Of a DNA stretch of 32,694 nucleotides, positions 13,663 to 32,694 are shown piece after piece. The stretch spans positions 1-32,694 of the IMG/VR virus record IMGVR_UViG_3300031983_000058. The stretch is one strand, 5' to 3'. This stretch comes from a virus. Under the pieces are notes generated by a model, which had not been told where the DNA came from, did no database searches, and worked only from the letters and a program-made list of their open reading frames with translations. Each line of letters begins with the position of its first letter. The first letter of the stretch is position 1. The position numbers were made by a program, and so were the translations under genes.

Positions 13663-14406
13663 ATGGCCTGGACGGTAATATTTTACCCATATAATATTTT
13701 AGAATCCGGCACAGTCACCGTTACCGGTGACCCTGACGACGGTTTCCCGGAAAGCAGGCTGTATGATCGAGCGATTTCACTTTTTTGGAAAGACACGGGC
13801 ACGGCGGTATGGACCTTCGTGGTTGATCAGGGCGCCACAGGAAACCTTGCTATAGATTTTCTGGCGATTCACCGTCATAATTTTTCGGGTAGTGATATGT
13901 GGTGGCAGTACAGTAATGACAATTTTGTTGCGGATATCCACAACGTCGTGAACAATTGGTCTCAGGTGGATAACGCACAGATTATCAAAACTCTAAGCAG
14001 CCCCGACACACATCGTTACTTGAGGATATATCTGGGCACCATAACAAACCCAAAATGTGGCGAAATTTTTATGTCAAAGGGTTATTCGTTTAACGCCCTG
14101 CGCGAGGGGAATCCTACCGGACGCGACGTTGATAACGTCAAGTGGCAAAGAACAGTCGGCAGCATCGAACGATCAACCAAGTTCGGCGAAAAACGCAAAG
14201 CCCGCACATATTCTTTTTGGCTGTCAGCGTCAGAATATGCCGATTTTCTCACTGTTAAAAGCTATCTGAACGATTATGCAAATCCTTTCTATTTCAAGGA
14301 TCATAAAGATAATTATTTTATGGCTAAATTTGAAGGAACGCCGGAAGAGAACTTTGACCATAATATCTATACACGAGTAACGATTAACATTATAGAAATG
14401 CTTTGA
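13663..14406 (+). CDS. distal-tail-like minor tail protein
   Basis: 247 residues, beta-rich. The first half has a galactose-binding-like layout (VDQGATGNLAIDFLAIHRHNF, SDMWWQYSND, then SSPDTHRYLRIYLG). The second half ends in WLSASEYADFLTVKSYL and strand pairs typical of proteins that link the tube to the tail hub. Genes of this type directly before a hub gene occur in many siphophages. It may form the ring below the tube and possibly bind a sugar. The stop overlaps the TTG start of the hub by four bases. The role is inferred from position and fold pattern. Confidence 0.5.
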   Translation: MAWTVIFYPYNILESGTVTVTGDPDDGFPESRLYDRAISLFWKDTGTAVWTFVVDQGATGNLAIDFLAIHRHNFSGSDMWWQYSNDNFVADIHNVVNNWSQVDNAQIIKTLSSPDTHRYLRIYLGTITNPKCGEIFMSKGYSFNALREGNPTGRDVDNVKWQRTVGSIERSTKFGEKRKARTYSFWLSASEYADFLTVKSYLNDYANPFYFKDHKDNYFMAKFEGTPEENFDHNIYTRVTINIIEML

Positions 14407-17400
14407 AAACCTTATCCACCTTTACAGAGACCGCCATCGACAATCCGCATGTCGATATCATTCGGCTGGTTGAAATCACCATCGGAGAAACAACCCTATA
14501 TCTTTGCGATCGGGTTTTCGGTGATGACGGCCTTTGTGTCTTTAACAACCGGCTATACGAACCGCTGATAATCTCCTGGGGCACGATCAAAACAGGTCGG
14601 ATAGACCCGTTAACATATGCCGTCGAACCGGGGGATGCGAGCTTTACGGTTGACAACTCACAGCCTGTGGGCGGAGCGGACTGCTTTACGGCGCTTTTTA
14701 TAAATAATGATCCTCAATATTGTTCTGTAATCATTTCTGAAATACACGAAGGAGCATCCGCTGCAGAGGATAAAGAAGATATTTTCGGCGGTCACATCGA
14801 GGATCTCCCCGAAATGACCGTTGACCGGGTAACCGTGGCCTGTGGCGGCTTTGAACTGGATATTGTAAATAAGTTCGTCCATACCATCGTTGATGATACC
14901 ACATATCCCGGCGCCGATCCTGACGATATCGGCAAGATGGTACCGCAGATTTACGGCCCGGTTAAACGAGTGCCGTGTATTGCAGCAGATGCCGGCGGAA
15001 AAACAACCATTGCAGAGGATATGACCGATACATCGCCGGGCAATGGCGAAACCCTGGATATTTCGGATGCCTCCGCTTTTCCGAGTTCCGGCGCTTTCAC
15101 GATCCAGATCGACAGCGAGCAGGTGCGCATTGCATCACGATCCGGCAACACTCTGACCCTGGCCGCATCCGGCGCCCGTGGTTATAATTCGACAGACGCC
15201 GTCTATCACGACCTCGGCGCACCTATGGCGGAGATCCAGACTAAATATGTTTATCTCCTGGCAGATCATCCTGTTAAAGAAATCACCACGGTTTATGTTG
15301 ACAATATCAGGCAGATATCGGGTTTCACGGCGTATTCGGGAGCAGACTATAATAAGATAGCCGATCCCTCCATCTTGCCTACAGGCCCTGGTTATGGTGT
15401 GGCCTTCAACCATGACGGTTCATTGATGGCTGTAGCACATTGGTATTCTCCCTACATAACAATCTACAACACCAGCGACTGGAGCAAAGTTGCAAACCCT
15501 TCCGTATTACCCGCTGGCGCTGGTTATGGTGTGGCCTTCAACCATGACGGTTCATTGATGGCTGTAGCACATTGGGATTCTCCCTACATAACAATCTACA
15601 ATACCAGCGACTGGAGCAAAGTTGCAAACCCTTCCGTATTACCCGCTGGCTCTGGTTATGGTTTGGCCTTCAACCATGATGGCTCGTTGCTGGCTGTAGC
15701 ACATTGGGATTCTCCCTACATAACAATCTACAACACCAGCGATTGGAGCAAAATAGCAAACCCTTCCGTATTACCAGCTGGTGCTGGTCATGATGTGGCC
15801 TTCAACCATGATGGCTCGTTGATGGCAGTGGCGCATTTCTCTTCTCCCTACATAACCATTTACAACACCAGCGACTGGAGCAAGGTTGCAAACCCTTCCG
15901 TATTACCCCCTAACATCGGTTATGGCGTGGCCTTCAACCATGATGGCTCGCTGATGGCAGTGGCGCATTCCGTTTCTCCCTACATAACCATCTATAATAC
16001 CAGCGACTGGAGCAAGATAGCCGATCCCACGACGCTGCCCTCTGACATCGGCAGAGGCGTAGCCTTCAATCACGACGGGTCGTTAATGGCTGTGGTACAT
16101 AATGGCTCTCCTTACGTAACCATTTACAACACCAGCGACTGGAGCAAGATTGACGATCCCTCCACCTTGCCTACGAGCAGCGGTAATGCTGTGGCCTTCA
16201 ACCATGACGGTTCATTGATAGCCGTGTTGCATGATGATTCTCCTTTCATAACTATTTATGAATTATCGGAATATTTTGGCAAGGCGGTCATCATTTTTGA
16301 CGCCCTGCCCAACTATAAAAAACAGGTCAACATCGAGGCCGATTCGTCGGACCTGGGCGTCGATTCATCCGGCAGGGCCACCGGTGACAGTGGCCATTCG
16401 CACTCATCCGCACAACAGACCATTGAGTGGTATTTTGATGATGCCACGGTCATTACAGGATCAGTTCAAAACCCGAATAATATCTGCGACCAAAACCTCA
16501 CAAATTATGCTCGGTTTTGCAATCTGAATGCTAAATGTGAGGTTGAGAAGATCAGCAGCGAGGAATATTCCGGCCCCCCGCAACAGTACCGAATATGTGT
16601 GAGGGTTGGAACGGTAGATGTCGGGGTTCAAATCAGGGCGAATTTTTACGGCCTGAGCGGAACGTATGGGTGTACCGTAACGTCCGCACATAATAACTCT
16701 ACACGCTACAGCATGTGGTACACTGTATCATCCGCCGTGGATACATGGGTAGAGCTCAAAACTAAAAAAATGACCGTAGAACAAATAGCCGGAAATAATT
16801 ATGGCAACATTAATGAAGTCTGGCTGGAGGTCAAATGGACACCCCAGGGGACCATTTCCGGGTATGCCAACGTTTCTCTTTCAGGCATCAACCTGGTCTC
16901 CGGGATAGTCACGCTGGCCGGTAATTCCACCGCCGAAACCGTTATCGGCAAAATGATATCTGCTGATGCGCAAGGTTATAAAGACGATAGCGCCGGGACC
17001 ATTACCGGCACGCCGTACGCCCTGATCGAACGTCCGGATCATCAGGCAAAGCACATAATAATAGACCGGTGCGGTCTTTCCGCAGACGAAATCCACGCAG
17101 CATCATACTCTGCTGCAGGAATATTTTTTAATGCAAACAGTTTCACCCTTGGCTTTCCCATATTACAAAGGCCCAACGTGCGTCTGCTGCTGAACCGTAT
17201 TGCAATCCAAGCCAAAGCCCTGGAATTTTGGGAGGCTGGAAAACATCATATTGTACCCATAGCAAGCTTCTTTATAGAAGACGAATTGTCGGTCCTGCTT
17301 TTACACATGGACGGCACAGACGGATCGACCGTCTTTATCGATGACGGCGCGACCGGGCACACTGTCATAGCTCACGGCAACGCCCAAATCGACACGGCAT

Positions 17401-19391
17401 ATAAAAAGTTCGGCACCGGTTCAGGACTGTTCGACGGATCGGGAGATTATCTGAGCATACCGGATCATGCCAACTTTAATATGGCTTCAGGACGGGTCGC
17501 AATCGATGTATGGAAGCGATTTCAAAGCGCCGATAAAACGGCTGTGCTTTATAGCCAGTTTGTCGATAATACCCATTTTGTGAAATTCGTAGTTCATAAC
17601 GATATTATCAGTTTTCATATCAAAAACGGAAGCGATGTTGTTAATTTTTCAAGAACCTATACAGCCGGTTTCACGGCGGGGGTGCAATATCACATCGCCC
17701 TGATAAGGGGCTGGAACAACAGCGACAATACCTGGGCGATCACGGTCACCGGCCAGATCGTGGGAGATGTCTATTCAAATTCCGCAGCCTGGCCGGACTT
17801 AGCAGCGGAAATTTTAATCGGAAAGACCGGCGACTGGAGCAAGATAACCAACCCTTCCGTATTTCCCCCCGGTACTGGAAATGGGATAGCCTTCAACCAT
17901 GATGGTTCATTGGTGGCTGTGGCACATTGGTATTCTCCCTACATAACAATCTACAACACCAGCGACTGGAGCAAGGTAAGCAATCCTTCCTTATTACCCT
18001 CCGGTACTGGTTATGGTGTGGCCTTCAATCATGATGGCTCGCTGATGGCAGTGGCGCATAATACTTCTCCCTACATAACCATTTACAACACCAGCGATTG
18101 GAGCAAGGTTGCAAACCCCGTCGTATGGCCTGTTGGTATTAGTATGGGGGTAGCCTTCAACCATGATGGCTCGCTGATGGTAGTGGCGCATTCCGGTTCT
18201 CCCCGCATAACCATCTATAATACCAGCGACTGGAGCAAGATAGCTGATCCCTCCACCTTACCTGCGGGCCCTGGTTGTGATGTGGCCTTCAATCATGATG
18301 GCTCACTGATGGCTGTGGCGCATGATACTTCTCCTTATATAACCATTTACAACACCAGCGACTGGAGCAAGGTAACCGATCCCACGACGCTGCCCTCTAA
18401 CATCGGCTATGGCGTAGCCTTCAATCACGACGGTTCGTTGATGGCAGTGGCGCATGATGCTTCTCCTTATATAACAATTTATAATACCAGTAACTGGAGC
18501 AAAGTAACCGACCCTTCCACATTACCCGCTGGTGCTGTTCGTGGTGTAGCCTTCAACCATGATGGTTCGCTGATGGCTGTGGCAAGTCTCTATTCTCCCT
18601 ACATAATAATCTACAACACCAGCGACTGGAGCAAGGTGGCCGATCCCTCCACCTTGCCTACGAGCTCCGGTCGCGGCGTAGCCTTCAATCATGATGGTTC
18701 GTTGATGGCCGTGGCGCATAATTCTTCTCCCAAAGTAACCACCTATGTCCCTGTTCAATATTCAAAAGGACATAAAGATGAATATCGTGTTTCAAAACCA
18801 ACTGCCCGCTGGACGGCGGATTTTACACCGTCCAATGAACCATACCCAAACACAGATCCGGGCGGCGGCATGTTCTGGAGTTTGTCAGTGTATAAGACAA
18901 TCGATGATAATCGTGTCGATCTCGGTCAAATCTGGCTGAAATATACGGATCGCATTAATATCAAAAATAAACTTACAGCCAGTTATTCCCGGCAGTGGTC
19001 CGGCCATATCGATGAAGTTGAAGCCGACCGGGCAATCGTAATTACAAGCGATGCCGGCTCGATCACAAAATTCGGTGTACTCCAGGGCGATCCGTTATCT
19101 TTTCCATATGTCAACGGCGAAACCCAGGCCCAGGCCGTACTTAATTGGAAACTTGCCGACTCCAAAGGCTCGCGCTTGATCGTCGAGCAGGCCGGCGGAT
19201 ATTACCTGACCGACATCGAGCGCGGGGACATTATCTGTTTTGATCATATGGAGTCCATTGGTGATGATAACCAATATCTGGAAAAAGCCCTGCTGGGACT
19301 CGTAACGATGGGCACAACCCTGTTTAGAGTGATCGATAAAAACTACCGCCCTGATGCGACGATCCAGATCGAAGCGGTAATCATAATATAA
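14403..19391 (+). CDS. tail hub / tip protein with LamG domain and two seven-bladed propellers
   Basis: 1662 residues starting at TTG in a TTGA overlap. Approximate plan: hub N terminus 1-317 (beta-rich, baseplate-like); propeller one, 318-625, seven repeats of 44 residues; hub middle 626-960; first part of a LamG/concanavalin-like domain 961-1146 (LLLHMDGTDGSTVFID, GTGSGLFDGSGDYLSIP); propeller two, 1147-1454, again seven repeats of 44; end of the LamG domain 1455-1490 (DEYRVSKPTARWTADFTP); hub C terminus 1490-1662. Repeats share VAFNHDGSLMAVAH, SPYITIYNTSDWS and LP. It occupies the place of lambda J. As the tail tip, it should contact the host surface; carbohydrate binding by LamG and the propellers is inference. 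Confidence 0.75.
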   Translation: MKTLSTFTETAIDNPHVDIIRLVEITIGETTLYLCDRVFGDDGLCVFNNRLYEPLIISWGTIKTGRIDPLTYAVEPGDASFTVDNSQPVGGADCFTALFINNDPQYCSVIISEIHEGASAAEDKEDIFGGHIEDLPEMTVDRVTVACGGFELDIVNKFVHTIVDDTTYPGADPDDIGKMVPQIYGPVKRVPCIAADAGGKTTIAEDMTDTSPGNGETLDISDASAFPSSGAFTIQIDSEQVRIASRSGNTLTLAASGARGYNSTDAVYHDLGAPMAEIQTKYVYLLADHPVKEITTVYVDNIRQISGFTAYSGADYNKIADPSILPTGPGYGVAFNHDGSLMAVAHWYSPYITIYNTSDWSKVANPSVLPAGAGYGVAFNHDGSLMAVAHWDSPYITIYNTSDWSKVANPSVLPAGSGYGLAFNHDGSLLAVAHWDSPYITIYNTSDWSKIANPSVLPAGAGHDVAFNHDGSLMAVAHFSSPYITIYNTSDWSKVANPSVLPPNIGYGVAFNHDGSLMAVAHSVSPYITIYNTSDWSKIADPTTLPSDIGRGVAFNHDGSLMAVVHNGSPYVTIYNTSDWSKIDDPSTLPTSSGNAVAFNHDGSLIAVLHDDSPFITIYELSEYFGKAVIIFDALPNYKKQVNIEADSSDLGVDSSGRATGDSGHSHSSAQQTIEWYFDDATVITGSVQNPNNICDQNLTNYARFCNLNAKCEVEKISSEEYSGPPQQYRICVRVGTVDVGVQIRANFYGLSGTYGCTVTSAHNNSTRYSMWYTVSSAVDTWVELKTKKMTVEQIAGNNYGNINEVWLEVKWTPQGTISGYANVSLSGINLVSGIVTLAGNSTAETVIGKMISADAQGYKDDSAGTITGTPYALIERPDHQAKHIIIDRCGLSADEIHAASYSAAGIFFNANSFTLGFPILQRPNVRLLLNRIAIQAKALEFWEAGKHHIVPIASFFIEDELSVLLLHMDGTDGSTVFIDDGATGHTVIAHGNAQIDTAYKKFGTGSGLFDGSGDYLSIPDHANFNMASGRVAIDVWKRFQSADKTAVLYSQFVDNTHFVKFVVHNDIISFHIKNGSDVVNFSRTYTAGFTAGVQYHIALIRGWNNSDNTWAITVTGQIVGDVYSNSAAWPDLAAEILIGKTGDWSKITNPSVFPPGTGNGIAFNHDGSLVAVAHWYSPYITIYNTSDWSKVSNPSLLPSGTGYGVAFNHDGSLMAVAHNTSPYITIYNTSDWSKVANPVVWPVGISMGVAFNHDGSLMVVAHSGSPRITIYNTSDWSKIADPSTLPAGPGCDVAFNHDGSLMAVAHDTSPYITIYNTSDWSKVTDPTTLPSNIGYGVAFNHDGSLMAVAHDASPYITIYNTSNWSKVTDPSTLPAGAVRGVAFNHDGSLMAVASLYSPYIIIYNTSDWSKVADPSTLPTSSGRGVAFNHDGSLMAVAHNSSPKVTTYVPVQYSKGHKDEYRVSKPTARWTADFTPSNEPYPNTDPGGGMFWSLSVYKTIDDNRVDLGQIWLKYTDRINIKNKLTASYSRQWSGHIDEVEADRAIVITSDAGSITKFGVLQGDPLSFPYVNGETQAQAVLNWKLADSKGSRLIVEQAGGYYLTDIERGDIICFDHMESIGDDNQYLEKALLGLVTMGTTLFRVIDKNYRPDATIQIEAVIII
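15354..16277 (+). repeat. seven 132-bp tandem repeats encoding propeller one
   Basis: Seven in-frame units of 132 bases (44 residues), 924 bases in all. Most of each unit is near identical, such as ACCAGCGACTGGAGCAA and AACCATGAYGG. The last unit degrades after TIY into ELSEYF, where the host domain resumes. Confidence 0.9.
17841..18764 (+). repeat. seven 132-bp tandem repeats encoding propeller two
   Basis: Again exactly seven in-frame units of 132 bases. The first unit of this array closely matches the first unit of the other array, and the last unit matches the last, which points to duplication of the whole array and not of single blades. Confidence 0.9.
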
Positions 19392-20553: not shown

Positions 20554-21267
20554 TTACCACAGCCTACGGACTCTTGATTTTTCTCTATCGATTTTCTTGC
20601 CCACCAGTCGTTCCCATAACTTGATGCCAGCTAACTTTTCAACAAGTGTCGTTGGGACTAAAAACGTGTCCAGTGATTGATCAGATTCTTCGTTTGGCAA
20701 TACAAATGACCACATATGCAAAGCCCCTTTGTTATTCTCAGTCAAAACAGATTTAAAATATGCTTGCGGCACCGGTATCGTTACCTCATTAGGGTCATCA
20801 GCACCTATCGTTTCGACTGGCTGATCGAAATAAAAGATAGGACCACAAATAACATACGTTTCCAAAATTTTAGACTTAGCATCTAAATTTCTGACTGCAG
20901 CTTCCAATTCTCTCCATATTTCTCTATTGAATTGAGGTCTCTGAGGAGACATATTGGACAAAAGGAATGTTTCGCTATTTTGTAATTCTGTTTCTCTCTG
21001 ATTAGCACTTGCAACAAGATGCCCACGGTCATAACCGGACCCAGTATAATCAACAAGGTCGGCACGAAACATCTCAGGAATTCGATAGTCTGGACGAAAG
21101 TTATCTAAACGATCTAAGCCAGGATTATCAGGATCTACAATTTCTAAAGCCCACTTTGCTTGACGAAAATAATATGAATACCCCAGTACATAATACCTAT
21201 TAAACATTATTTGGTCTGCTGCCGGCATTCCGTATCTAGTTTCGCGTCTTAAATTAGGTAAGTTCAT
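20554..21267 (-). CDS. DNA/RNA non-specific endonuclease (beta-beta-alpha metal type)
   Basis: 237 residues. The active-site segment is clear: DRGHL (Asp80, His83), then SNMSPQ (Asn105) and FNREIWRELE with Asn114 as the expected metal ligand. The family includes NucA and endonuclease G, which cut DNA and RNA without strong sequence preference. There is no signal peptide, so the protein is expected in the cytoplasm, unlike secreted relatives. The gene lies downstream of the SIR2-STAND gene on the same strand, 207 bases apart. Cytoplasmic nucleases are common effectors in anti-phage loci, which is inference here. Base composition is AT-rich compared with the phage structural genes. Confidence 0.85.
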   Translation of the reverse strand: MNLPNLRRETRYGMPAADQIMFNRYYVLGYSYYFRQAKWALEIVDPDNPGLDRLDNFRPDYRIPEMFRADLVDYTGSGYDRGHLVASANQRETELQNSETFLLSNMSPQRPQFNREIWRELEAAVRNLDAKSKILETYVICGPIFYFDQPVETIGADDPNEVTIPVPQAYFKSVLTENNKGALHMWSFVLPNEESDQSLDTFLVPTTLVEKLAGIKLWERLVGKKIDREKSRVRRLW

Positions 21268-21474: not shown

Positions 21475-24400
21475 TTAAGTGAAAACTTTTTTCACATATA
21501 TCCCTAAACCGTTAAGACCGATTTCAACTTTCATATTTTGTCCGGATTGGGGATAATTACCTGATGAAATAGTCCTCAAGTCCATATGAGCGTTAAGGTT
21601 TCGCGGGAATCCTTCAATTTCAACAAATCCCTTTCCTAAACGATATGGTTTATAAGTACCATTAATTATCATAGGCTTTTGCTCATGATCTAATAATTCT
21701 ATTTTCAAATTGAGCTTTTCAGAAAAAGAAATTGGAGAATCACTTATTTTTCTAATTTCTCTTGGTGCTTCTCCAAATTCTTGGTGTTCAACTAATCCCT
21801 TTATATACCTTAATCTTCTTTTATAATCGATTGGCACTAATTTTAAATATTCTTTATAGCTATTCTTTATGTCACTCCAACTACCATTTAATGCTATTAA
21901 ACACTTAATTTTTAACCTATGAAGTCCTGAACTTTTAGGCGCATATGGAACCCCATTGTTAATGTATTTAAGAGCGTCAGGATAATTCTTCTTTTTAATT
22001 AACAAGTTTGCCAACAAGAGTATCGCCCGCACATTACCAGCATCAAGCAGGATACTTCTCTTAAGTTTTTCTTCAGCTTCAGGTATTTTATCAAGAGCAA
22101 GATTGAGTCTTGCAAGCAATACGATTAGTTCGCTGCTCATCGGATATAGCCTCAATGCATTATCAAGATCCTCTTGGGCCTCTTCAATAACTCGCAATCT
22201 TTGTTCTTCAGGCAAATGGTCTTTTTTAAGTGCCCAGTCAAGCAATTTATCAATTAGACTATGATAATGTATTTCTTTATCAGTATCTTTGGAAATACGC
22301 TTACGAATTAATGTTGCACCTTTTTTTAGTGCATATTCTGCTCTATCAGGTTTGGGCTCTGAAATCGCCTCTCTTAACCATATGGTCCCTTTTGTATTTA
22401 AAAAATGTGGATGACTATCGCTTAAATGTATCGCATCATCTGCTAATTTTCTAGCAATCTCAAAGTTTTTTTCTTGAGACTCAAAAATAGCAGCATGTTG
22501 TTTTATATAAGGATCTGAAGGAAACTCTGTCATTAAATATGTATATAATGATCTAATGCGACCAGATTCTTTAAGGGTTTTTGATAAATAGTCTTCTTGG
22601 TAAACTCTTTTTAGTAGCTCATATTCGTTATATGAATGCGGATTAATATTTTTTGCTATTTCTATAAGCAATTCGACTATTCTTGCAGGATCAACAACCG
22701 ATTCGAGCAATGATTCTGCTATAACACGATGTTGAGTAGAAAACAGAAGCTCTCCACTTATGTGGTCAATCTCCTCCAGAACAATCTCATCAAGTTGTCC
22801 ACTCATTTCTGAATGGTAGTCAATAAGTGCCAAATTTACTAATTTTGTTGCCAATGTAGCCGGCATTTGTATAGCTAAACTATGAGAAATTGCTACTGAA
22901 AGATAAATATTTCTTGCAGGCACGCTTTTTATCCTAAAATATTCATCAGCGATAATTTCATGAAATTTTGTTTCTTTTCCGGTTATAACCGTCCGCAATC
23001 CAGCAATTATATGCTTCTCGCCCACGTCTATCAATTGGTTGGATATTTCTTTTGCAGATATGCTTTCACCTCTTTCTTCTAATAATCCTGAACGTATTAA
23101 AGTATTTGCCAAACTTAATGATTCTTTTTCCGATAGTCTTTGTAACGTGAATCTTGAAGGAATAGGTATCGAACCTGTTCCTCGCGCAGAATTCCATTCA
23201 CTTTGCCTAGAGGCGATTAAAATATAGACATGTAATTTATTATTTACTGCATCTAAATATAGCCTTTTAATGGAAGACATACATTTTGGTCCATCATCAA
23301 ACATTATCACGACTGTCTTTTTTATTAATTTACAAAATTCGGATATTGGCGTGGGATCTAAATTTACGTTGTTACGCACCCATAGAATGATATAATCATC
23401 ATTTTTAGAAATATCGTATGCGGTCTGCATCAATAAAGTGCTTTTTCCGTATCCAGCCGCACCCAACAATAAACTGATCCGTGGTTTCCTTGATGGTAAC
23501 CAATTATTAATATCATCAATTATATCATTTTCAATTTCTCTCTTTATAGGTAAATTGTTCTGAATGTCATCCCAGTAAGGAAAAGATCCAATCAAATAGG
23601 TGCTCTGTTCAGGTAATCGCACGGGAGATTCTAACTCAGAGATAATTTGACAGTATTTTTTTATTGAATCAGCAAGGTTAGGAGAAATTGATATCGATAA
23701 TTTTTGTTTTGCCCAATTAGTTATAGAGGCACTACGCTCAATAATTTTATCCTCAATTGATATAGGAGTTCTATCTAAATTTGCTTTGAGCCAAGGAAGA
23801 AATGTCTTTGAATCTGAATCAATTACAGTTACTCCTTCAATTTCCATAGATTTGATAAAGCTGGGCGATGCACTAGGCTTTATTAAAAAAGATGGTTTAA
23901 GTATAGAAAGTGACCCCCCATATTTTTTTACGCTTTCCCATAAATCATGGAAATCTGAATCTTCAAACCCAAATCCGATAAATAAAAGGCTATGCTCGCA
24001 TAACTTAACGGCTAAGTTTGCGAATAATCTTAAGTTTTTTTCGCGGGCTTGCGTGTAATCGCGATGTGAAAAAATTATGCTACTCTCAGGTTTTATCAAA
24101 CAACCGTGTAATTTTAGATAGGGCACTTCTGTCTCAGTCTCAGATGTGGATGGATCAGTCGGTAGCACAATTGGAACTAATTTCTGTACTTTTTTCTCAG
24201 CATTGGAATATGCAGTCTCGATACCATAGTCTATATTAACAGTGTATATACTATTCCATTGTATGTATGGAATTTGCATTAAAGTGTTAGTGGTACGCAC
24301 TGGATGAAGTCGTTTAATAAGATATTTACGTAACTTTTCACTCCCTTCAATATTTTGTATTTTTGTTGAAACAGCTCTCAACGATTCATTATTGAATGTT

Positions 24401-24576
24401 TCATTAGGAAAAAAATGTTTTGACAAGTCCTCAGCTAGATTATTTCCAAGTGGCGCGGGTTTTGGAGGATCACCCATTTTGCAGTCCGCGTTTACTCCCG
24501 CACCAAGAAAAAGTACCATATCTCCTTTTGAAGTTGCGGCTAATAATTCCGAAGAATTTGGAAAAGTATGCAACAT
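21475..24576 (-). CDS. SIR2-STAND NTPase-TPR defence protein (Avs5-like architecture)
   Basis: 1033 residues. SIR2 domain 1-265: FLGAGVN (23-29), YTVNIDYGIE with Asn114 and Asp116, KLHG with His157, and FIGFGFEDSDF near 199-209; the NAD-binding and catalytic residues look intact. Central P-loop NTPase about 320-650: Walker A GAAGYGKST (372-380) and Walker B VVIMFDD (422-428). C-terminal about 680-960: helical repeats with TPR spacing (ALRLYPMSSELIVLLARLNLAL, then EAEEKLKRSILLDAGNVRAI). In known systems, STAND proteins sense a phage protein through the C terminus and the SIR2 domain then depletes NAD+. It is AT-rich, on the opposite strand from late genes, and sits in the usual cargo position of a prophage. 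Confidence 0.88.
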   Translation of the reverse strand: MLHTFPNSSELLAATSKGDMVLFLGAGVNADCKMGDPPKPAPLGNNLAEDLSKHFFPNETFNNESLRAVSTKIQNIEGSEKLRKYLIKRLHPVRTTNTLMQIPYIQWNSIYTVNIDYGIETAYSNAEKKVQKLVPIVLPTDPSTSETETEVPYLKLHGCLIKPESSIIFSHRDYTQAREKNLRLFANLAVKLCEHSLLFIGFGFEDSDFHDLWESVKKYGGSLSILKPSFLIKPSASPSFIKSMEIEGVTVIDSDSKTFLPWLKANLDRTPISIEDKIIERSASITNWAKQKLSISISPNLADSIKKYCQIISELESPVRLPEQSTYLIGSFPYWDDIQNNLPIKREIENDIIDDINNWLPSRKPRISLLLGAAGYGKSTLLMQTAYDISKNDDYIILWVRNNVNLDPTPISEFCKLIKKTVVIMFDDGPKCMSSIKRLYLDAVNNKLHVYILIASRQSEWNSARGTGSIPIPSRFTLQRLSEKESLSLANTLIRSGLLEERGESISAKEISNQLIDVGEKHIIAGLRTVITGKETKFHEIIADEYFRIKSVPARNIYLSVAISHSLAIQMPATLATKLVNLALIDYHSEMSGQLDEIVLEEIDHISGELLFSTQHRVIAESLLESVVDPARIVELLIEIAKNINPHSYNEYELLKRVYQEDYLSKTLKESGRIRSLYTYLMTEFPSDPYIKQHAAIFESQEKNFEIARKLADDAIHLSDSHPHFLNTKGTIWLREAISEPKPDRAEYALKKGATLIRKRISKDTDKEIHYHSLIDKLLDWALKKDHLPEEQRLRVIEEAQEDLDNALRLYPMSSELIVLLARLNLALDKIPEAEEKLKRSILLDAGNVRAILLLANLLIKKKNYPDALKYINNGVPYAPKSSGLHRLKIKCLIALNGSWSDIKNSYKEYLKLVPIDYKRRLRYIKGLVEHQEFGEAPREIRKISDSPISFSEKLNLKIELLDHEQKPMIINGTYKPYRLGKGFVEIEGFPRNLNAHMDLRTISSGNYPQSGQNMKVEIGLNGLGIYVKKVFT

Positions 24577-28066: not shown

Positions 28067-28924
28067 ATGGCTAAATACAGACCGATCTTTACAAGGATAT
28101 GGAAAGACCCGGATTTTGAGGAAATGGATGCCGAATCCAAGTTGATATTTATATATTTATGCACAAATGAATTGACCACCGACAGCGGCATTTATTCCAT
28201 ATCATTTAAAACGATTTCTAACGAAACCGGCATCCCTTTAGAAACGGTTAGGGAACGGTTAACCAACGGTTCTATTAAGAATCTGCTATATGATGAACAG
28301 TTCAAATACGTCTTTGTCGTCAAATTTAAAAAATATAATGCCGGCGGAAAGCCGAAACTTGTCGAAAGGGGGATAGTAAACGACTTTAAATCATCTAACT
28401 GCACGTATTTGTGGAGTATTTTTATAAAAGAATATCCAAAATATAAAGATGCAATTCTAACCGTTGGTAAACCGTTAGAGAACGGTTCTGGACAAATCCG
28501 CACTAATCCTAAACCTAATCCTAAACCTAGAAAGGCTTTATTTACTAGCGTAAATAAAGCCCCCGGATCCGGGGGTCATTTTTCTGATCAGTTGGAAAAT
28601 TACGCCGAACCGATAATCAAGAACTGTAAAAAAATCCTGAAACTGCCACAGAAAAACGGCAAGCGCTTCAACCCGTTTCAATGGGTACAGTCTCAAACTA
28701 AAAACAATATACATCCCGGAGCCATACTCGAGACAGTGGAAGCCCTGGCCAATCCAAAACACTGGCAGAATATCCGTGACGGACCTTGGGCATATGCCAC
28801 GGCGATTATCAAAACTAAAAACGGGAACTGGAATGAAAGATCCCATATCGCCGAGGCTGAAAAATTCAAAGAAACATGGATCAGCCCGGAAGTTAAGGAA
28901 TTAATCAAAAACATTGGATCATGA
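28067..28924 (+). CDS. replication initiator, winged-helix (lambda O-like)
   Basis: 285 residues. Residues 1-110 are a winged-helix module (YRPIFTRIWKDPDFEEMDAE, FIYLCTNE, SGIYSISFKTISNETGI, then ETVRERL) like phage replication initiators of the O / DnaD-like group. Residues about 150-175 are a flexible linker (TNPKPNPKPRKALF), and the C-terminal part is helical (GAILETVEALANPKHWQNI) as in DnaB-loading initiators. The gene body contains repeats that look like the origin itself (see separate entries). It overlaps the next gene by ATGA. No helicase or loader gene is seen, so the host DnaB pathway would be used. The exact initiator family is uncertain. Confidence 0.65.
   Translation: MAKYRPIFTRIWKDPDFEEMDAESKLIFIYLCTNELTTDSGIYSISFKTISNETGIPLETVRERLTNGSIKNLLYDEQFKYVFVVKFKKYNAGGKPKLVERGIVNDFKSSNCTYLWSIFIKEYPKYKDAILTVGKPLENGSGQIRTNPKPNPKPRKALFTSVNKAPGSGGHFSDQLENYAEPIIKNCKKILKLPQKNGKRFNPFQWVQSQTKNNIHPGAILETVEALANPKHWQNIRDGPWAYATAIIKTKNGNWNERSHIAEAEKFKETWISPEVKELIKNIGS
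28243..28271 (+). repeat. iteron triplet 1 (AACGGTT, 11-bp spacing)
   Basis: AACGGTT begins at 28243, 28254 and 28265, exactly one helical turn apart (11 bases), inside the replication gene. A matching triplet lies at 28459-28487. Direct reading shows this; a chance triple at constant phase is unlikely. Confidence 0.8.
28459..28487 (+). repeat. iteron triplet 2 (AACCGTT, AACCGTT, AACGGTT, 11-bp spacing)
   Basis: AACCGTT (reverse complement of AACGGTT) at 28459 and 28470, then AACGGTT at 28481, again at an 11-base period. The change of orientation makes an inverted arrangement. Confidence 0.8.
28503..28529 (+). repeat. tandem 12-bp repeat CTAATCCTAAAC
   Basis: Two exact copies (28503-28514, 28515-28526) and the beginning of a third. 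It encodes the NPKPNPKP linker, so part of the repetition may be protein-level, but its position just after iterons and before two palindromes fits an origin. Confidence 0.6.
28534..28575 (+). other. candidate replication origin structure: two adjoining palindromes
   Basis: GGCTTTATTTAC-TAGC-GTAAATAAAGCC (28534-28561), a perfect 12-base stem, immediately abuts the 16-base palindrome CCCCCGGATCCGGGGG (28560-28575). One is AT-rich (melting), the other very GC-rich. With the two iteron triplets upstream this forms a plausible intragenic origin. Confidence 0.6.
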
Positions 28925-29892
28925 ATCATCTTAAGCGAATAGAACAGATAAAATCAGCCGGCATTGCCGACAATACGATCAGATCGTATGAAAGCGATAT
29001 GAAATATTTCTGGGGCTGGGTTAAAATTACCAGAGGCGGAGATATTAAATATCCGGTTTCTCCGGGACTGATTGAAGCTTTTATTTTAGATCACATAGAG
29101 GGCCTTGATCAACGCACAGACAGGTTAATGGTTGAATGCGGATATAAAGCTAAACTTGGCAGGTTACATGCGGTTATCACCGTCCAGCGTCGTCTGAAAG
29201 CCCTTGGATGGATTCACAGAATTAATAATTATGAGAATCCTGCCAGGTCTCAAAAAATAAAAGAAATACTTAGTGCCGCCAAAAGGGTTGAATCCAAATC
29301 GGGCAGGGTTCCCAAAAAATCCAGGGCGATCACTAAAGATGTCCTGGATAAAATAATTAAAACAATCGACACGCGTACGCTTGTTGGGAAGCGTAACAGG
29401 GCGATCCTTGAATTCGGATTTTATACCGGTGGCCGGCGTCGAAACGAAATAGCATCGGCACAGTACAGGTTTTTAACAAAAAACCGGGGAGGCTATATTT
29501 ATCTGCTCCACAGGTCAAAGACGGACCAGTCCGGCAAGGGCCGTCAAAAAATCCTGCGGAGCAGATACTCCCACTCTCTCACAGCCTGGATTGCAGCCGC
29601 CAACATAACAGACGGCTATCTTTTCCGGAGCATCAGGGGAAATAAAGCCGGTGAAAAGCCGATTAACCCACAAATAGTAAATAAAATTATAAAGTCACAC
29701 ATTGAAATGATCGGTGAAAACCCCAAATTTTACAGCGCCCACGGCCTCCGTCGTGGTTTCATCACAACCTGCGGACGCCTTGGACTGTCAATATATGACG
29801 TAATGGAATTGACCGATCACAAAGACATCAGAACCCTGCTTGTCTATTACGAGGAAGGCCGGATCAGCAGAAACCCGGCCACAAAGATTTAA
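28921..29892 (+). CDS. second tyrosine recombinase
   Basis: 323 residues. Catalytic residues are in place: Arg173 in TGGRRRNE, Lys200 in HRSKTD, His274 and Arg277 in SAHGLRRGF, His300 in LTDHKD and Tyr309/310 in LVYYEEG. The N-terminal SAM-like domain is at about 1-120. The start overlaps the initiator stop by ATGA, so the gene is co-translated with replication. A role in resolving dimers or multimers produced during replication is a reasonable inference; an alternative is a second integration function. It differs clearly from the right-end integrase and is not adjacent to the att core. Confidence 0.8.
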   Translation: MNHLKRIEQIKSAGIADNTIRSYESDMKYFWGWVKITRGGDIKYPVSPGLIEAFILDHIEGLDQRTDRLMVECGYKAKLGRLHAVITVQRRLKALGWIHRINNYENPARSQKIKEILSAAKRVESKSGRVPKKSRAITKDVLDKIIKTIDTRTLVGKRNRAILEFGFYTGGRRRNEIASAQYRFLTKNRGGYIYLLHRSKTDQSGKGRQKILRSRYSHSLTAWIAAANITDGYLFRSIRGNKAGEKPINPQIVNKIIKSHIEMIGENPKFYSAHGLRRGFITTCGRLGLSIYDVMELTDHKDIRTLLVYYEEGRISRNPATKI

Positions 29893-31695: not shown

Positions 31696-32694
31696 ATGCA
31701 GCCCATGAACCTCTGGCAACGTCCCAAACATCAAACTTGGTATGCCAGCTTTGAACGCTGCAAAAGGTTTCCTGCCGGCAAGCGCATTTCATTAAAAACC
31801 AAAGACAAAAAAGAAGCCCTGGCCATATTTAAGGCCCTGAAAAAAAAGTGGCTCGAAAACCGGCTTATCGAACTGGACGGATCCCGGCGGATATCCCTAA
31901 AAGACTTTATCAAAGAATATACAGATCACCCGGACCGCAAAAACCTGTCTGAAAACACGCTCCGGATGGACCGCCTTGCATTAAACAGTTTAGGTGATGT
32001 TATAGGCCCCAGCGCTGCAATCAAAACAATCAACCATTCTAAAATCACCCTGTTTAAAAAGATATGCAGCGCCCGGGAACTTTCAAAAAGCACCACGAAT
32101 ACATATTTGCGGCATATCAGGGCAGCCCTAAACACAGCCCGCGAATGGGGATATATAGAAAAAGTTCCTAAGATAAAGCCGCTTAAAGTCGGCAAACACC
32201 TTCCGGCCACGTTATCCAGAAAAGAAATAAATAAAATACTCGAATACTCAAAAAAAGAAGATCACGAAATGTGGCGGATTATTACATTCGCCCTCTGGAC
32301 CGGCTGCCGGCGACAGGAAATATTAAATCTTAAATGGCAGGACGTATCAGAAAAAACATGCCGGATCATCGGCAAGGGCGACAAAGAAAGAGTTGTTTAT
32401 CTTCTGCAGGATGCATTAAAAGCGATGGGCCCCATGCGGCATATCGGCCCCGTATTTAGAAAAATGCACAAAGACACGGTTTCTCACAAGTTCAAGGACC
32501 TGGCCACAGCCTGTAATATAAAAGCCCACTTTCACAACCTACGCCACACCGCCGCCACACACATGCTGAAAAACGAAATACCCCTGGAAGTCATCCAGAA
32601 GATCCTCGGCCACTCCGATATCCGAACAACTCAGATTTACGCTCAGGTCTATGACGATGTAATACAAAAAGAAATGAGCAAATTGAAATACTAA
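31696..32694 (+). CDS. tyrosine integrase
   Basis: 332 residues, a full-length phage integrase. The arm-binding N terminus (about 1-60, with GKRISLKTKDKKEAL) is followed by a core-binding SAM-like domain (about 68-160) and a catalytic domain with Arg205 (WTGCRRQEIL), Lys227/230 (GKGDKERVV), His280 and Arg283 (HNLRHTAATHML), His306 (LGHSDIRTT) and Tyr315 (QIYAQVYDD). It would recombine the tRNA-Thr core. The stop codon is the last three bases of the window, so attachment DNA beyond it is not visible here. Confidence 0.92.
   Translation: MQPMNLWQRPKHQTWYASFERCKRFPAGKRISLKTKDKKEALAIFKALKKKWLENRLIELDGSRRISLKDFIKEYTDHPDRKNLSENTLRMDRLALNSLGDVIGPSAAIKTINHSKITLFKKICSARELSKSTTNTYLRHIRAALNTAREWGYIEKVPKIKPLKVGKHLPATLSRKEINKILEYSKKEDHEMWRIITFALWTGCRRQEILNLKWQDVSEKTCRIIGKGDKERVVYLLQDALKAMGPMRHIGPVFRKMHKDTVSHKFKDLATACNIKAHFHNLRHTAATHMLKNEIPLEVIQKILGHSDIRTTQIYAQVYDDVIQKEMSKLKY

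Follow-up and report, generated by a model that had tools for sequence, protein, structure and literature searches.

Replication origins lying inside the gene for the protein that reads them are a known kind in plasmids and phages. In the RepA_N plasmids, the Rep proteins of pSK41 and pTZ2162 use an N-terminal winged helix to bind Rep boxes situated centrally in rep, with the central linker of the protein being coded by the origin DNA itself and the C-terminal domain being exchangeable (PMC5703833). The origin of phage lambda is likewise placed in the middle of the O gene and comprises iterons followed by an AT-rich tract (PMC7466680), while in the Bacillus phage SPP1 the replisome organizer gp38 binds direct repeats within its own gene (oriL), which is furnished with an AT-rich unwinding element (PMC6316719).

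In a 32,694-nt stretch of viral DNA (hereinafter the window), we examined a gene for a 285-aa protein that carries two triplets of a 7-bp box at 11-bp steps. We read these boxes as a temperate-phage replication origin inside its initiator gene, comparable to those of lambda, SPP1 and the RepA_N plasmids, and give this reading a probability of about 0.86. The preliminary description had cited lambda as a precedent, which holds, but by analogy the RepA_N plasmids offer the closest architecture. The modelled N-terminus of the window protein aligns with RepA-type initiators (4pt7, 4pql, 5kbj) over 85–87 residues, and the putative origin DNA likewise codes for the linker between two domains. However, the window derives from a phage, its protein has no PF06970 match, the fold likeness is tied with that to other winged helices, the C-terminal module is without a recognised fold, and the boxes are 7 bp long, stepped at 11 bp and arranged in two clusters. 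As in lambda, the boxes sit in the middle of the initiator gene, with CI-like, Cro-like and CII-like genes (weak matches) upstream of it in the window, and a relative in Citrobacter phage Chris1 is found in the gene order cro-cII-O-P; in contrast, lambda has a single array of four O-dimer-bound iterons rather than two clusters of 7-bp boxes, and the window has no recognised P-like gene next to the initiator. SPP1, compared here by description, shares the repeats internal to the organizer gene and the AT-rich element, but in SPP1 there is a further, distant origin (oriR), and the phage supplies a loader and a helicase of its own. Geobacillus phage D6E and Clostridioides phage CD1801 encode a homologous N-terminal domain, just after which phased ACGATACG boxes occur at 11–12 bp steps, followed by 6-bp or 12-bp repeats and, in D6E, an adjoining DnaB. 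They differ in box sequence and C-terminus, and have no twin cluster by the simple test used. Although intragenic origins are a known kind, no earlier description seems to exist of the short boxes, of their doubling or of their spread among many unrelated phages: a search of the open literature gave no account of AACSGTT 11-bp iterons or twin clusters, and a search for the heptamer with phage origins gave nothing relevant, its SPP1 match being a terminator-table entry.

Architecture of the initiator gene and its boxes

Profile matches place the gene in the phage replisome-organizer/helicase-loader family PHROG 6251/1701: within residues 1–122 its product matches PHROG 6251 'replisome organizer DnaA-like' (1.5e-18) and PHROG 1701 'DnaD-like helicase loader' (7e-17). 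No Pfam family, PF06970 included, was matched at E-values up to 0.1. The AlphaFold2 model (mean pLDDT 85.6) displays a winged helix with its recognition helix at residues 58–66 and wing strands at 73–76 and 81–84, more helices up to residue 132, disorder at 139–170 and then a helical C-terminal domain. In VIA-align comparisons, the model N-terminus scores Z 7.6 over 65 residues against CAP-type winged helices, a tie with the Z 6.7 over its longer alignment to the RepA-type initiators. Profile searches against solved structures returned nothing significant, and Foldseek on the PDB gave nothing below 1e-3 for either model, that of the C-terminal module included. The latter reaches a best Z of 5.0 among fold matches, and DnaD and RepA C-terminal domains are absent from its Foldseek or VIA matches. 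In other genes, this module is joined to different N-terminal domains, several of them with other phased mid-gene repeats, such as AACNGTT at 12-bp steps (L229) or ATGTCAC (L225).

Table 1. Features of the initiator gene and the elements embedded in it (window positions)
Feature	Position	Strand	Basis
Initiator gene, 285 aa: N-terminal winged helix, disordered linker, helical C-terminal module	28067..28924	+	PHROG matches, AlphaFold2 model
Winged-helix DNA-binding domain, codons 1–90	28067..28336	+	AlphaFold2 model, VIA-align
Predicted recognition helix, codons 58–66; overlaps cluster A	28238..28264	+	model secondary structure
Cluster A: three AACGGTT boxes (starts 28243, 28254, 28265), 11-bp steps	28243..28271	+	box search, shuffles, wobble conservation
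AT-rich stretch just 5' of cluster B, candidate melting site	28400..28458	.	AT content, duplex instability
Cluster B: AACCGTT, AACCGTT, AACGGTT (starts 28459, 28470, 28481), 11-bp steps	28459..28487	+	box search, shuffles, arrangement kept in relatives
Disordered linker, codons 139–170	28481..28576	+	pLDDT < 50
CTANNN hexamer repeats, linker-coding, second candidate melting site; include tandem 12-mer CTAATCCTAAAC (28503-28526)	28503..28532	+	
Perfect 12-bp inverted repeat (arms 28534-28545/28550-28561), 4-nt loop; not conserved, probably outside core	28534..28561	.	
16-bp palindrome CCCCCGGATCCGGGGG, terminator-like with T run after it; not conserved	28560..28575	.	
C-terminal helical module, codons 171–285; elsewhere joined to other N-terminal domains	28577..28921	+	homologue comparison

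The preliminary description had reported six heptamers in two triplets with 11-base steps and a 216-base offset inside this gene, as well as a tandem 12-mer, a perfect 12-bp-stem inverted repeat and a 16-bp palindrome, all of which are present (the last three at 28503-28575), with the offset running from the first box of cluster A to the first box of cluster B. The best consensus for the box is AACSGTT, a near-palindrome. The window contains 14 such boxes as compared to 4.8 ± 2.2 in dinucleotide shuffles, with 6 of the 14 packed within 245 bp, and the phased pattern AACSGTTN4AACSGTTN4AACSGTT occurs twice as against 0 in 100 shuffles. Synonymous-codon shuffles of the initiator gene produced one triplet in 160 of 100,000 cases (0.16%) and six boxes in 0 of 100,000; the encoded peptide (TVxxRLxNG) does make one triplet easier, but not two. 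Moreover, a step of 11 is not divisible by 3, so the frame shifts from box to box: the repeats occupy different reading frames and encode different residues, and a repeated peptide is hence no explanation for them.

Given the modelled position of the recognition helix, cluster A (codons 59–69) sits on the recognition-helix codons. Cluster B corresponds to codons 131–141, where the folded N-terminal part ends, and, together with the repeats, spans codons 131–155, with the predicted disordered linker being encoded by the tandem repeats and hairpins. With 76% AT, the 50 bp at 28400-28449 rank at the 98th percentile of the window for duplex instability; the hexamer region does not itself stand out as unstable. 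The tandem 12-mer is a version of a linker-coding 6-bp repeat that recurs in relatives, where it adjoins cluster B whatever their peptide (NPKPNPKP, NTNTNT or LPLPLP). The preliminary description envisaged an intragenic origin with abutting palindromes, of which the origin is supported, but the inverted repeat and palindrome prove lineage-specific and were rejected as core parts. At the place of the inverted repeat, L001/L144 has an unrelated hairpin, L145 a fold formed by the boxes themselves, and L146, L148 and L151 no significant fold. GC skew gave no clear origin signal and was uninformative.

Distant homologues of the initiator in Geobacillus phages D6E, E2 and PK5.1 lie directly 5' of DnaB-like helicase genes, and one in a Klebsiella phage lies 5' of a DnaC gene. 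In the window, its 3' neighbours are a tyrosine recombinase and an HTH protein. No helicase or loader (P-like or DnaC) gene was recognised among the neighbouring genes scanned, a part of the window ORFs, and host proteins are therefore probably recruited. The tyrosine recombinase (28921-29892, + strand) overlaps the end of the initiator gene (ATGA) and is additional to the usual integrase at 31696-32694. Elsewhere in the window, the gene at 21475-24576 (− strand) probably provides anti-phage defence and is borne by the prophage; its 1033-aa product combines SIR2-like, nSTAND NTPase and TPR domains and matches ThsA weakly. Adjoining this gene on the same strand is a DNA/RNA non-specific endonuclease (20554-21267, − strand; PF01223, 2.7e-43). 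The tail region codes for a 1662-aa protein (14403-19391, + strand) with many near-identical 'FNHDGSLMAVAHxxSPYITIYNTSDWSKV' repeats that resemble beta-propeller/WD40 blades.

Conservation, variation and spread of the phased boxes

A first protein search of the genome collection found no relative of the initiator; a profile search recovered 80 viral homologues, a set that is largely, not wholly, independent of the boxes, since 4 of the 10 profile members were taken from the box scan. The preliminary description had made its reading depend on the heptamers being conserved where the protein is, and they are: the relative L001/L144, with 53% aa identity, retains 6 of 6 boxes at identical in-gene offsets (176, 187, 198 / 392, 403, 414). 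Across the close clade, cluster A boxes are partly kept (176, 198) beside degenerate AACTGTT, AACAGTT or AAGTGTT copies, and cluster B is found at 392–415 or 448–487. Overall, cluster B is better preserved and more widespread than cluster A, and some homologues have no recognisable phased boxes by the simple test used. Synonymous sites, the other comparison proposed at the outset, point the same way: in nine aligned relatives, 83% of pairs are identical at wobble bases beneath cluster A versus 38% expected from codon usage (six codons scored, with the alignment breaking up at cluster B), as compared to 35% observed and 35% expected in 120 other codons (Mann-Whitney p = 0.0016 for cluster A versus the others). 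Codon 64 encodes R, L or V in these relatives, yet is always NNG.

The twin triplets, previously thought distinctive, are indeed present in the window, but the twin layout is recurrent in the superfamily, neither universal nor unique to the window phage. Among 23 non-redundant triplet-bearing initiators, 29 AACNGTT boxes fall in nt 141–275 as compared to 5.3 ± 2.0 in synonymous shuffles (maximum 12 in 1000), an excess that is in part the starting observation because the window and L019 are within the 23. Such boxes are present in 10 of the 23, and 7-mers common to both regions at p < 0.01 occur in 10 of 38 non-redundant homologues, mostly not box-selected.

Further relatives carry changed boxes in the same layout. 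Cluster B of L147-L149 reads AACCCTT-AACCCTT-AAGGGTT, with the spacing and the two-forward-one-inverted arrangement of the window; cluster A has not followed this change. In a Klebsiella phage (L233), each cluster comprises two AAGGGTT and one AACSGTT (176, 187, 210 / 408, 419, 430), and an Acinetobacter phage (L236) has AAGGGGCTT or its complement in both clusters at 11-bp steps (181, 192 / 448, 459). Gram-positive relatives have ACGATAC or ACGTGAC at 11–12 bp steps just 3' of the same domain. To judge from these sequences, a reader protein whose specificity drifts alongside its sites appears to be the best explanation.

A scan of 2.9 million viral contigs for the triplet at 11-bp steps gave 58 matches, as compared to 2 each for a 14-bp step of AACSGTT and for the scrambled box ATCSGAT. 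By profile or BLAST, 28 of the 58 contigs have the triplet in the window's gene family (a BLAST count of 43 in initiators was lowered to 28 by a stricter test), and about 11 more have it in a sister family ('MARIRYLKPDFF') labelled replication initiation protein by PHROGs; in total about 39 of the 58 are inside initiator-type genes, and the hosts span several phyla. A second scrambled box, CAASTTG, matched 25 viral contigs, some of them in another phage protein family, and was rejected as a clean control. At least six contigs with CAASTTG at 11-bp steps (L242, L247, L249, L250, L259, L261) belong to one family ('RNWDKFQPTMKDRNVIWIKIYRQILEDYEWHNLSSDSKATL'), which may be another initiator or replication protein with its own phased boxes.

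Initiator genes are not the sole location of the box, since the remainder of the 58 include triplets beside terminase genes in other viruses. At L022:3789, L045:4120, L053:1693, L070:2623, L032:1258, L036:906 and L029:551, AACSGTT boxes stepped at 11 bp are found between terminase genes or immediately ahead of them, where they could act as origins or as pac/cos sites recognised by the terminase small subunit. Many genome-collection matches are short tandem repeats or Bacteroidales intergenic repeats rather than initiators. Numerous GAACGGTTCAG triplets outside long ORFs in Bacteroidales (Butyricimonas-type) genomes (L078, L082, L083, L086, L088, L090, L092, L094 and others) represent a different use of the same box. 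In Legionella-like genomes (L132:1152, L137:4635, L143:852), AACCGTTTGTG triplets are contained in a gene whose product begins MAIKKGAF... and which may be a further replication gene of a mobile element.

The proposed origin and competing explanations

The origin reading draws on the annotation of the gene family as initiator or helicase loader and the homologues adjoining DnaB or DnaC genes, on phasing beyond coding chance, wobble conservation, concerted box changes and viral spread, and on the other subfamilies with other phased boxes at the same place and the architecture of pSK41 Rep and lambda O. By analogy with lambda O, SPP1 gp38 and pSK41 Rep, we posit that the N-terminal winged helix would bind the AACSGTT boxes, probably with one subunit per 11-bp turn, which would place three subunits per cluster on one DNA face. 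Cluster B, where domain and linker meet, would be the core iteron array at which the origin fires, with the adjoining AT-rich DNA and 6-bp repeats as the likely melting site, and the C-terminal module would recruit the host helicase or primase. Cluster A, lying upstream, may be a second binding station that loops to cluster B, raises the local initiator concentration, or damps initiation and transcription.

The initiator might instead bind the boxes mainly to regulate its own transcription, which would make them an internal operator or roadblock and place the true origin at another site. At 176 bp into the gene, cluster A is positioned where bound protein could block transcription, and a terminator-like hairpin follows in the linker; yet internal operators would need neither 6-bp repeats nor a linker-coding site as in lambda O and pSK41 Rep, and it is cluster B, not A, that is better kept among relatives, making this improbable. 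Slightly less probable still is that the boxes are sites for another protein, be it a host factor, a terminase or a protein of partition: the triplets near terminase genes in several other viral contigs would fit such a role, but the concerted box changes within initiator genes, the hosts from several phyla and the location of most viral matches inside initiator-type genes speak against it. That peptide sequence and codon bias by themselves gave rise to the repeats is largely refuted and very improbable, for although the shuffles indicate a peptide favouring boxes, they never yielded all six, the 11-bp step breaks the reading frame, and wobble bases stay fixed while residues vary.

Beyond the origin reading itself, we tentatively raise a broader possibility, which we think more doubtful than probable, that the locus exemplifies an unrecognised and very widespread class of self-contained phage origins. 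In these, the recognition-helix codons would carry copies of the site being read, a second set would lie ~200–270 bp downstream before the linker, the helix and both clusters would change together, the C-terminal replisome-recruiting module would be freely exchanged, and the two stations would act as a looping or handcuffing switch.

If the boxes are an origin, short boxes phased along the middle of a phage gene for a winged-helix protein would constitute a signature by which origins might be found and initiators named from DNA alone. The family would also offer natural repeated experiments in which to follow an initiator and its origin as their specificity changes jointly within a single gene, and to ask why a second, upstream cluster has been retained.
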